Of a stretch of 64,000 bases of DNA, positions 18,608 to 61,829 are shown piece after piece. Source of the stretch: Plastoroseomonas arctica. GTDB lineage: Bacteria; Pseudomonadota; Alphaproteobacteria; Acetobacterales; Acetobacteraceae. Numbering within the stretch: the stretch's first letter is position 1; every line of letters begins with the position of its first letter. The notes under the pieces are model-generated. The model made no database searches, had not been told where the DNA came from, and worked only from the letters and a program-made list of their open reading frames with translations. The position numbers and the translations under genes were made by a program. The DNA is taken from NCBI RefSeq assembly GCF_018128965.1, contig NZ_JAAEDH010000020.1, positions 1 through 64,000 on the forward strand, in the 5' to 3' direction.

Positions 18608-18754
18608 TTCGTATTGCACCGCAAAAAAACGCTTGCATACGAACGATGGACGCCCTAAATAGGTTTCAGCAGCGACGGGCTTGCCCGTTCTCTGCTTTCT
18701 TGGACGTTTCCTCCCTAAACTTGGCGGTGCCCTCGGGCGCCGCCACTTTTTTTT
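18608..18754 (+). ncRNA. Structured intergenic segment ending in an intrinsic terminator; possible sRNA or caiB 3' UTR
   Basis: Three elements lie in 150 bases: inverted arms TTCGTAT (18608-18614) and ATACGAA (18637-18643); a nested hairpin AGCAG-CG-ACGGGC-TT-GCCCGT-TCT-CTGCT (18668-18696); and a strong terminator (18723-18754). Base composition is clearly less GC-rich than the flanks. The stretch could be a small RNA with its own promoter or only the long 3' end of the CoA-transferase mRNA. I cannot decide from sequence alone. Confidence 0.35.
18723..18754 (+). terminator. Rho-independent terminator
   Basis: GGCGGTGC pairs with GCGCCGCC (18737-18744, one G-U pair) around a CCTCGG loop and is followed by AC and eight T residues. 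This is the clearest intrinsic terminator in the window. It ends plus-strand transcription coming from the CoA-transferase gene or from a local RNA, and protects the convergent gene at 18780. Confidence 0.85.
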
Positions 18755-18779
18755 GGCCGGGTCGCAACGCCGCGGACGC

Positions 18780-38650: not shown

Positions 38651-38700
38651 TGCCAGGACGTCCCGGCCGGAGAGGGATGGCCGCACGGTCGTCCGCGCGG
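38651..38700 (-). promoter_or_regulatory. Candidate guanidine-II (mini-ykkC) riboswitch upstream of sugE
   Basis: Read on the minus strand, two stem-loops precede the sugE ATG: CGCGCGG-ACGA-CCGTGCG (38682-38699, 7 bp with one G-U) and GCCGGG-ACGT-CCTGGC (38652-38667, 6 bp with one G-U), 14 bases apart. Twin hairpins with GG-ACGR-CC loops are the defining feature of the guanidine-II class. The second loop has T in place of the purine, a departure from the consensus. AAGGGA, the probable ribosome site, follows the second hairpin. Confidence 0.65.
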
Positions 38701-58681: not shown

Positions 58682-58855
58682 ATGACTGAATTGACCGTGA
58701 CGCTGTCGACCGAAGCCGCCGAGGCCATCGCGCGCCGTGCCGAGGCGCTTGGTTGCTCTGCCGATGCCTGGCTCGCCGCCATGGTCGAGGATATCGCCGC
58801 CGACCTGCCGGAGAGCGTCGAGGATGACGGGCCGGACGGCTTCATCTGCCGCTGA
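58682..58855 (+). CDS. Small RHH-like antitoxin-type protein
   Basis: A 57-residue acidic protein. M-T-E-L-T-V-T-L-S-T-E-A-A-E-A-I-A-R-R-A could be a ribbon strand followed by helix, and the C-terminus is strongly acidic (E-D-D-G-P-D-G-F), as in many ribbon-helix-helix antitoxins. A good AGGTGAG site precedes the ATG. No toxin gene of normal form follows, so it is an orphan or a different small regulator. Confidence 0.5.
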   Translation: MTELTVTLSTEAAEAIARRAEALGCSADAWLAAMVEDIAADLPESVEDDGPDGFICR

Positions 58856-59174
58856 GAAGTTTTGTTTAGCTACAAGTAAATAACGAATTCCGTTTAACGG
58901 GAGTCGCTTTACCATGAATTGGTCTCGATTATTTCCTGGTGGAGGGGTGAAGCGCCATAACTTGAATTGTCATTTCCGCTGCGTGAACATTGGTATGCTG
59001 CGAAGGAGCTACTCAATGAAGGATTATTTTCGAGCGCGAGGCGAAATATTTATTGACAGTTATCGCGGTATCCTACAGAACAGTGAGGAACAGGAACACG
59101 GTTGGCTTTAGTTTCGACCCAGAGTTAGATCTTACATGTAGCGACCGGGCGTTTTGGGCAATGGAATACGCCGC
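58856..59174 (+). other. AT-rich stretch with short competing reading frames
   Basis: This 319-bp stretch is markedly poorer in G+C than anything around it. It holds two overlapping short frames. One starts at an ATG at 59016 behind a good GAAGGAG site (31 residues to 59111; an ATG at 58914 would make it 65). The other, one frame over, runs open from about 59022 to a TGA at 59176-59178 and reads G-F-S-F-D-P-E-L-D-L-T-C. It ends in an ATGA overlap with the next gene. This looks like a frameshifted small gene. Confidence 0.45.
59053..59079 (+). promoter_or_regulatory. Candidate promoter for the discoidin/glycosyltransferase gene
   Basis: A perfect TTGACA (59053-59058) is followed after 15 bases by TACAGA (59074-59079). 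The spacing is slightly short for a housekeeping promoter, but the -35 box is exact, which is rare in this GC-rich sequence. It would start an mRNA with a leader of about 90 bases before the ATG at 59175. Confidence 0.4.
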
Positions 59175-60482
59175 ATGACCGAGGAGTGCCTTAATCTTGG
59201 CGCCGGCAAGACCATCCGGCTGAGCAGCTACTGGCGTGGGAGGGAGCCCGCTGCAGAAAACGTGCTGACCGGTAGGCCTACGGGACGATTCTCTTTCCAC
59301 ACCACTATAGAGACGGACCCTTGGATTTTGGTCGATCTCCACCGTGCGGTCCCGGTTGCCCGCATCATGCTGTGGAACCGTGAAGACGCCGGGCTGGATG
59401 GATTGCTACGCGCCGTGCCGCTGCGTATCGAAGCAGCCGCGGAACATGAGGCTTGGTGCACGCTCGCCACCATCGGCATCGCCTTCGGAGGTGCGCTGTC
59501 GAACACGCCCTTCGACTTTCGCTTGCCGCATCCGATCCTTGCCCGCTTTATCCGCCTCACGGCGCTGGGTATTGGCGCCCTTCACTTGGACAAGGTTTTC
59601 ATCTTTTCCCCCGACCTCACACCTGGCACCTCTCCGCGCTATGGCAGGCTTACCAACCTGCGCTTTCTCGACGGATGGCCTACGGCCGATATCGCGGTTC
59701 GTTGGAACCAAGGCTTCTTTTCCAACTGCTCCGTCGCACTCCAGATGGCGATGAGCGCGGCGGCACGCGGCTTCACCATTTCCGAGATTGATTTTTCAGC
59801 TTCCATGTGGGGTTTTCGTGAAAAATCTAATGGCCAACCGCACCTCTTCGTGGCCGACACCGCCATTTCCTTGCCAGTGCCCGCGACCGGCCAGCGATTA
59901 TTCAACGCTTGGGATGTTCATAATCACTATCGAGACTTTCGCTTCGATACACTAACACCCTTCATCCACCGCCTTTTTCGTCCGCATCCTGAAGTTGCGG
60001 AGATTGAACAATCCCTTGTTGCCCACTACGCCGTCGATCAGTCGAATACCATCGTCATCCTGTACCGCGGCACCGACAAGAGGACGGAAATCTCGCCAAC
60101 CGACATCGCCGAATACCTCGCCTTGGCAGACCGTCTGCTCGCCACACGCCCCGGCCACCGTGTCTGCATTCAGACCGACCAAAAGCAGATCCAGGACCAA
60201 GTGAAGGCGCATTTCGGCGAGCGCTGCTTCGCCTTCGATTCCCTGCCGGTCACTGAAGGCAGTGTTGTGATCCATCGCACAGATGTCTCACGCCACGGCC
60301 TGGACCGCACTACCTTCGGCCAGACCCTGCTCGCCGCCATCCACCTGCTGGCCGCGGCGGACATCGTGATCACCCATACCGGCAATGTGGGTGCATGGAT
60401 CAGCCTCTATCGCGGCCATGCCCGCAACCTCTTCCAGTTCGACAGCAAGCAGGCTCTGATTGCCCCCTACAACACCTCCTGA
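59175..60482 (+). CDS. Discoidin (F5/8 type C)-like domain plus fucosyltransferase-like glycosyltransferase
   Basis: A 435-residue protein. Residues about 15-140 resemble a discoidin/galactose-binding beta-sandwich: W-I-L-V-D-L-H-R-A-V-P-V-A-R-I-M-L-W-N-R and F-I-R-L-T-A-L-G. The C-terminal half has I-V-I-L-Y-R-G-T-D-K-R-T-E and ends V-I-T-H-T-G-N-V-G-A-W-I-S-L-Y-R-G, the kind of nucleotide-sugar site seen in NodZ/alpha-1,6-fucosyltransferase-like enzymes. So it may glycosylate a surface structure. Codon use is less GC-rich than its neighbours and the AT-rich flank suggests transfer. The ATG at 59175 is chosen over a TTG at 59154. Confidence 0.65.
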   Translation: MTEECLNLGAGKTIRLSSYWRGREPAAENVLTGRPTGRFSFHTTIETDPWILVDLHRAVPVARIMLWNREDAGLDGLLRAVPLRIEAAAEHEAWCTLATIGIAFGGALSNTPFDFRLPHPILARFIRLTALGIGALHLDKVFIFSPDLTPGTSPRYGRLTNLRFLDGWPTADIAVRWNQGFFSNCSVALQMAMSAAARGFTISEIDFSASMWGFREKSNGQPHLFVADTAISLPVPATGQRLFNAWDVHNHYRDFRFDTLTPFIHRLFRPHPEVAEIEQSLVAHYAVDQSNTIVILYRGTDKRTEISPTDIAEYLALADRLLATRPGHRVCIQTDQKQIQDQVKAHFGERCFAFDSLPVTEGSVVIHRTDVSRHGLDRTTFGQTLLAAIHLLAAADIVITHTGNVGAWISLYRGHARNLFQFDSKQALIAPYNTS

Positions 60483-60489
60483 AACGCAG

Positions 60490-60519
60490 AAGGCCCCGGC
60501 GGTTGCCCGCCGGGGCCTT
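60490..60519. terminator. Strong GC hairpin terminator serving both strands
   Basis: GGCCCCGGCGG and CCGCCGGGGCC pair perfectly (11 bp) around TTGC, with AA before and TT after. On the plus strand it ends the glycosyltransferase gene. On the minus strand it is followed by TTCTGCGTTT and forms the terminator hairpin of the leader element at 60571-60645. T-runs are short on both sides. Confidence 0.75.
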
Positions 60520-60529
60520 CACATCGCGT

Positions 60530-60565
60530 GGCAGGTGGCCTGCCCACGACTACCCAGGTGACCCG
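60530..60565 (-). promoter_or_regulatory. Leader region: SD-sequestering segment and middle hairpin
   Basis: On the minus strand, CGGGTCACCT (60556-60565), 5 bases after the leader-peptide stop, can pair with AGGTGATCCG of the ribosome site (60631-60640): 10 base pairs with a single U-G. Next comes a 6-bp hairpin GGCAGG-TGG-CCTGCC in plus-strand wording (60531-60545), then the terminator. These mutually placed elements look like a translation-responsive switch. Confidence 0.5.
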
Positions 60566-60570
60566 TGCGA

Positions 60571-60630
60571 CTAGACCCGCACGATGATCCGGGCCGTGGC
60601 CAGAGCACGCCCATGATTGCGATGAGACAC
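60571..60630 (-). CDS. Leader peptide, 19 residues, attenuator type
   Basis: The frame GTG ... TAG encodes M-S-H-R-N-H-G-R-A-L-A-T-A-R-I-I-V-R-V. The ribosome site directly upstream, AAAGGAGGTGATCCG (60631-60645), is complementary to about the last 13 bases of 16S rRNA, far more than in ordinary genes. Two Ile and two Val codons stand at the end, just before the stop, as in leaders of branched-chain amino acid operons. No structural gene follows on this strand. Confidence 0.6.
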   Translation of the reverse strand: MSHRNHGRALATARIIVRV

Positions 60631-60645
60631 CGGATCACCTCCTTT
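60631..60645 (-). promoter_or_regulatory. Extended Shine-Dalgarno sequence of the leader peptide
   Basis: AAAGGAGGTGATCCG on the minus strand, 7 bases from GGAGG to the GTG. It covers essentially the whole anti-Shine-Dalgarno tail of 16S rRNA (GGATCACCTCCTTT), so the leader should be translated very strongly unless the site is sequestered by 60556-60565. Confidence 0.75.
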
Positions 60646-60660
60646 CGGTTGTTGACGCAC

Positions 60661-60698
60661 CGAGCCTGCACGGCGCGCTCGGCGCCGCGCAAGCAAAT
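60661..60698 (-). terminator. Possible hairpin terminator after the livK-type gene
   Basis: GCGCGGCG and CGCCGTGC pair on the minus strand (8 bp with one G-U) about 15 bases after the stop codon of the substrate-binding-protein gene. No T-run follows, so it may only stabilise the mRNA end. Confidence 0.35.
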
Positions 60699-60707
60699 AA
60701 ACCGAGA

Positions 60708-61829
<1,122 letters not shown>

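Follow-up and report, generated by a model that had tools for sequence, protein, structure and literature searches.

A free-standing CC2171-family RNA gene of Plastoroseomonas arctica with a conserved short reading frame and an internal copy of the 16S rRNA tail

The window analysed here, a 64,000-nt stretch of the Plastoroseomonas arctica genome (contig NZ_JAAEDH010000020.1), contains on its minus strand a free-standing gene for a short RNA of approximately 165 nt that belongs to the Rfam CC2171 family (Table 1). The covariance model RF01867 (CC2171 sRNA) matches it at full length (model positions 1-159 complete, E 3e-14) with 77.8 bits, above the curated gathering score of 75 bits. A preliminary description of this DNA had recognised a leader layout on the minus strand at 60490-60645, and each of its parts was located: a Shine-Dalgarno (SD) site complementary to nearly all of the 16S rRNA tail (17 nt), a 19-codon frame ending in Arg-Ile-Ile-Val-Arg-Val, segments capable of pairing with the SD, a predicted middle hairpin and a terminator hairpin, whose stem is 13 bp long, with a weak T run, and not 11 bp as described. 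Also as described, no ilv or leu gene follows; the RNA adjoins an insertion with a gene on the opposite strand. Elsewhere in the window, Rfam models matched a suhB/mmgR (aR8-type) small RNA (18687-18759, plus strand; RF00519, 49.5 bits) and, barely above the cut-off of 32 bits, a Guanidine-II (mini-ykkC) riboswitch (38653-38700, minus strand; 33.3 bits).

Table 1. Features of the CC2171-family RNA gene and its surroundings in the window
Feature	Position	Strand	Basis or remark
CC2171-family RNA gene	60490..60657	-	ends inferred; Rfam match 60491-60654
Putative -35 element CTTGCG	60688..60693	-	alignment; TTG[AC] enrichment
Putative -10-like element TGCAGG, 17-nt spacer	60665..60670	-	alignment
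SD block GAAAGGAGGTGATCCGG, complement of the 16S rRNA 3' tail	60630..60646	-	final base doubles as the G of the GTG start
19-codon reading frame (sORF) VSHRNHGRALATARIIVRV*	60571..60630	-	frame conserved across the CC2171 family
P1 helix, 5' strand CATCGC, codons 3-4	60619..60624	-	covariation
Internal 16S-tail mimic CCGGATCATC, codons 13-16	60583..60592	-	pairs with SD 60630-60639; position conserved; covariation
Second anti-SD segment CACGGGTCACCT, after the stop codon	60556..60567	-	subclade feature
Middle hairpin	60523..60550	-	predicted fold
P1 helix, 3' strand GCGATG, just before the terminator	60522..60527	-	covariation
Intrinsic-terminator-like hairpin	60490..60519	-	13-bp stem, weak T run
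LivK-like substrate-binding protein (Peripla_BP_6), upstream neighbour	60708..61829	-	LivK also in Acetobacteraceae relatives
Lower-GC insertion beside the RNA	58844..60482	+	carries ORF 59154-60482; absent from L198

The gene appears to have a promoter of its own. Among 251 distinct loci, 120 carry a TTG[AC] motif 46-54 nt 5' of AAAGG, as opposed to 20 in a control interval, and in the alignment the motif is followed about 17 nt downstream by a -10-like element; a GCAGGCT that resembles the -10 element of the window recurs in several Acetobacteraceae relatives. Together with the terminator hairpin, these promoter-like elements point to an independent short transcript that would start approximately 13 nt before AAAGG. 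The earlier suggestion of a stand-alone small RNA is borne out by these elements, by the varied neighbours of the loci (see below) and by the Rfam match. Its comparison with trp-leader-derived RNAs does not hold, given the same promoter-like elements, the lack of a parent operon and the variety of neighbours.

In the window, the GTG start codon (60630-60628, minus strand) comes directly at the end of the SD block and overlaps its last base. The segment AAAGGAGGTGATCC occurs once in the 4.44-Mb genome, with about 0.03 occurrences expected by chance, and the computed duplex of the SD block with the 16S tail has an energy of -34.3 kcal/mol. This complementarity refers to the generally known alphaproteobacterial tail CUGGAUCACCUCCUUUCU, which we take to hold for this organism as well; the assembly gave no rRNA match. 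In the approximately 250 loci compared, the 5' block has the form GAAAGGAGGTGATCC-N-RTG and is complementary to the 16S 3' tail as far as the start codon. Likewise, GAAAGGAGGTG(A/G)TC is nearly invariant in 59 loci whose selection relied on the covariance model, with no use of the pattern. An ordinary SD has no need of such conservation; a 17-nt complement of the 16S tail that reaches the start codon does need it. The same perfect SD also precedes secreted-looking frames of approximately 50-57 residues, with a signal peptide and then a Cys/Ser-rich or KETTVAQ tail, at six loci from Azospirillum and other genomes (L102, L132, L144, L222, L262 and L263), and these frames may descend from a CC2171-type RNA gene.

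Across the class, the exact pattern AAAGGAGGTGRTCC-N-RTG was found in 68 of 385 genomes, at exactly one site in each; the reversed control pattern had no match in the same 385 alphaproteobacterial genomes, and 60 of the 68 sites coincide with covariance-model matches. The model itself, at E <= 0.001, matched 68 of the 150 genomes from the window's own family and 85 of 385 class-wide, mostly below the Rfam cut-off, and none of four Sphingomonadales loci tested was recognised by Rfam at that cut-off. Phylum-wide, a near-identical pattern was present in 68 of 135 alphaproteobacterial genomes versus one of 263 other Pseudomonadota (rows counted by hand), with two sites in one genome. By these counts, the SD block as a rule marks a single gene per genome; roughly one in two of the alphaproteobacterial genomes sampled has it, and other Pseudomonadota hardly ever do. 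The 5' block was also seen on two IMG/VR 'viral' contigs (L180 and L181), which may be host or prophage sequence.

The frame that begins at the SD block is conserved throughout the family while its peptide is not. A stop codon closes frame 0 at codon 16-27 in 89% of 245 distinct loci, compared with 13% and 22% for the other two frames, and over approximately 250 loci both the start (ATG or GTG, rarely TTG) and the stop are conserved, with a frame length of 18-26 codons. Substitution rates at codon positions 1, 2 and 3 are 0.24, 0.27 and 0.16 in Sphingomonadales and 0.18, 0.20 and 0.15 in the other loci; position 3 is thus slower than positions 1 and 2, which indicates that the peptide is not what selection keeps. 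The residues that are conserved, Ser-His-Cys/Arg at codons 2-4 and a Trp/Arg-Ile pair near codons 13-16, coincide with two RNA helices, P1 and the mimic described below, and conservation past codon 4 is otherwise poor.

Codons 13-16 of the window's frame replicate the 16S tail and can form 10 bp with the SD block, one of them a G-U pair, and it is because these codons are the mimic that the peptide contains Arg-Ile-Ile. A single segment with a 10-bp pairing to the ribosome site had been described; the pairing was confirmed, and two segments proved capable of it, the mimic, which is the conserved one, and a second segment after the stop codon that is common to loci L198, L018, L165, L217, L026 and L128. 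In most RNAs outside Sphingomonadales, the best partner of the SD lies in a nearly fixed place, at approximately +37 to +46 from the start codon. For the covariation test, the mimic was located by its GGATC core alone and the base that follows the core was set against SD base 14: the pairs (SD base first) were A-T in 40 of 50 loci, G-C in 11 of 12, T-A in 5 of 9 and C-G in 1 of 2. Watson-Crick pairing at base 14 was therefore seen in 57 of 73 loci, against 33 expected in shuffles that do not correct for the relatedness of the loci, and 0 of 100000 such shuffles reached it. Matched states other than A come from at least six different family-level groups in addition to Caulobacterales loci, and the amino acid encoded in the mimic shifts with base 14 from Trp (TGG) to Arg (CGG or AGG). 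In a slid-column control, in which five core pairs of the SD-mimic helix are selected by construction, 91% of cells were paired versus 23-43% after sliding, with a covariation score of 0.153 versus 0.118 when shuffled, and pairing of the SD with the sORF tends to exceed shuffles. The anti-SD signal is weak in Sphingomonadales, and covariation at base 14 is not clear in the divergent lineages. Divergent loci L219-L260 have a different anti-SD form, GGAGCA(A/G)CCT, near +55, with convergent 'EQPS'-like peptide ends. In relatives of the window, conservation accordingly extends to the pairing segments, as seen from the SD-mimic covariation, and neither to the 19-residue peptide nor to a downstream ilvB.

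The other conserved helix, P1, joins codons 3-5 to the foot of the terminator, which it adjoins and does not replace. Codon 3 is CAT in 200 loci, and ATG stands just before the terminator in 186 of these 200. The neighbouring pair is T-A in 110, G-C in 51, C-G in 14 and A-T in 1, which amounts to Watson-Crick pairing in 176 of 186, against 85 in shuffles that likewise do not correct for relatedness. The window has the C-G version, CATCGC:GCGATG, and the Sphingomonadales form is CATGGTTCAGC:GCTGACCATG. The two internal SD pairings of the window (-18.2 and -20.7 kcal/mol) are weaker than its duplex with the 16S tail, and folding predictions for the whole RNA favour the self-closed forms by 4 to 9 kcal/mol over the one in which P1 is formed and the SD is free. 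The minimum-energy fold is not the same in every clade: the SD is closed in the window's group, and P1 with a free SD is the predicted ground state in most of the Hyphomicrobiales, Caulobacterales and Sphingomonadales examples folded. The mimic and P1 together would be a pseudoknot or would be mutually exclusive. In 58 Acetobacteraceae RNAs, we saw no conserved core between the mimic and the 3' strand of P1 and no other conserved unpaired motif; a ligand riboswitch was rejected because these 58 RNAs have no conserved aptamer core. In Sphingomonadales loci such as L091 and L079, GCGAAGG at the foot of the terminator has a possible partner in a conserved GGCTTCGT that lies upstream of the hairpin; such a pairing would resemble an anti-terminator, and an IlvE-class aminotransferase lies downstream at these loci.

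Comparison of the loci thus brings out an SD block present once per genome, a frame kept without its peptide, the two helices, promoter-like elements and a free-standing context, and the best reading of this set is probably a ribosome-gated RNA, in which the tail of the 30S subunit and the RNA's own mimic of that tail compete for the SD. The 30S subunits would compete in trans and the mimic in cis. Loading of a 30S subunit during transcription, before the mimic has been made, would let a ribosome translate the frame; the translating ribosome would strip the mimic and P1 from their partners and hold the RNA open, and without a ribosome the RNA would close itself. Conservation is seen neither in a downstream gene nor in the peptide or any other unpaired motif, and what the RNA puts out is therefore most likely its own state, ribosome-bound or free; it would then bind 30S subunits in a self-limiting way and respond to those that are free. 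A further step, in which the RNA would be a class-wide sensor of free 30S subunits whose translated fraction would be a readout of initiation capacity with feedback on growth or ribosome economy, is offered tentatively and is rather unlikely as it stands.

That the RNA is instead an ordinary sRNA acting in trans by base pairing, with a 5' sORF that is either incidental or a means of shielding the RNA by ribosome occupancy, seems to us an unlikely but serious alternative. Rfam annotates the family as an sRNA, dual-function sRNAs are known in Alphaproteobacteria (rnTrpL; PMC10117765), and there could be lineage-specific trans targets without a conserved motif, the seeds for which would escape alignment. 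However, the conserved elements are limited to the SD block, the start, P1, the mimic, the promoter-like elements and the terminator, and for protection by a ribosome an internal 16S-tail copy in covariation with the SD would be superfluous.

A small mRNA with tuned translation of a functional peptide is very unlikely. The frame is strongly conserved, and two formerly predicted Caulobacter ncRNAs have been found to be translated (PLoS Genet 2014; PMC4117421), though CC2171 is not shown to be among them. The peptide as main product was nevertheless rejected, since third codon positions are not fast, residues past codon 4 are poorly conserved, and the conserved Ser-His-Cys and Trp-Ile residues map to P1 and the mimic.

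We regard as highly improbable a role as a decoy or sponge for sRNAs with anti-SD loops, such as the aR8/MmgR family, in the way that CrfA acts on SisA-D in Caulobacter. The perfect SD sequence, the precedent of CrfA and aR8 sRNAs (PMC12559287) and the mmgR-type RNA in the window would all suit such a role, but pairing of the aR8 core UUUCCUCCCU with the SD block is confined to GGAGG (5 bp), and on this short match the sponge was rejected. The stronger duplex computed with the window's mmgR (-21.8) appears to use the U tract of the mmgR terminator, and conservation runs on through GAUCCAG and the start codon, as pairing with 16S rRNA would require.

The neighbours of the RNA bear on the preliminary proposal that it is an orphan attenuator, cut off from a branched-chain amino acid operon when an AT-richer glycosyltransferase region inserted. 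The insertion is real: its 1.64 kb start approximately 8 nt beyond the terminator hairpin, where the same-genus locus L198 has 237 nt. Its ORF carries an F5/8 type C domain (Pfam), 'glycosyltransferase-like' being the label of the preliminary description. The severed ilv gene is not: the uninterrupted site in L198 leads to a flavin reductase on the opposite strand. No IlvB, IlvN or IlvC match was found near the RNA in 262 loci, and the window genome's own ilvB lies approximately 60 nt after miaA (named from its sequence), without a leader. LivK lies upstream in 19 Acetobacteraceae loci (the window and 18 others), and an IlvE-class aminotransferase lies downstream in 17 Sphingomonadales loci only, at distances from the terminator of tens of nt to several kb; the peptides at these aminotransferase loci have no runs of branched-chain codons, and both links are local synteny with unrelated peptides. 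Other neighbours vary by lineage: a sulfatase (plus strand) or flavin reductase (minus strand) downstream, DUF188 or RNase R downstream elsewhere, and UvrB upstream in some Sphingomonadales. Ile, Leu and Val together make up 21% and 16% of residues after codon 5 and are not enriched in the frames. The attenuator, for which a leader-like frame with Arg-Ile-Ile-Val-Arg-Val, SD-pairing segments, a terminator, the LivK and IlvE-class neighbours and the adjoining insertion had spoken, is thus largely refuted and extremely improbable, as its supposed control codons are not conserved across loci and are accounted for by the mimic, no ilvB, ilvN or ilvC gene accompanies the RNA at the 262 loci, and the empty site in L198 holds a flavin reductase.

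A ribosome-gated RNA of the kind preferred here shares with ribosome-mediated attenuators (the ilvB, leuA and trpE leaders) an SD, a short frame, alternative pairings and a terminator, and in both the position of the ribosome would decide the fold; unlike them, it has no downstream operon or conserved regulatory codons, and it has promoter-like elements of its own and occurs in many unrelated contexts. With rnTrpL/peTrpL of Sinorhizobium, an attenuator-derived dual-function RNA, it has in common its shortness, the tiny frame and a proposed action apart from an operon; the leaderless rnTrpL derives from the trpE leader (PMC10117765), whereas the SD of the CC2171-family RNA is maximal and there is no parent operon. 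As in the expression platforms of translational riboswitches, the SD would toggle between a free state and pairing with an internal anti-SD, a pairing that the SD-mimic covariation supports; in contrast to them, there is no conserved ligand-binding core, and the anti-SD is part of the very frame under its control, its likeness to the 16S tail running through GGAUC as far as the start codon. Our literature search for an SD/anti-SD RNA of this kind found none.

The RNA agrees with RF01867 (CC2171, a Caulobacter sRNA) in its free-standing position, terminator, conserved 5' block and start region and in the whole-length model match; Rfam, by contrast, treats the family as an sRNA gene. CC2171/RF01867 is mentioned as an RNA predicted in Mesorhizobium huakuii (PMC5596092), and a table of structure updates also includes it (PMC11701678). 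The literature searched on CC2171/RF01867 gave no description of the sORF, the one-per-genome SD, the 16S-tail mimic, or the Sphingomonadales and divergent members, which score below the cut-off.

A family catalogued only as a Caulobacter sRNA is hereby extended to about half of the alphaproteobacterial genomes sampled and to a conserved reading frame. Its members carry a full-length complement of the 16S tail that generally has no second copy in the genome, and with it an internal, covarying copy of the tail itself. The Arg-Ile-Ile-Val of the window illustrates that the look of a leader peptide can stem from RNA pairing and not from amino acid sensing. For an uncharacterised family, the competition of 30S subunits and mimic for the SD would be a concrete mechanism, and it prompts the question of whether bacteria may possess an RNA devoted to responding to the availability of ribosomes.
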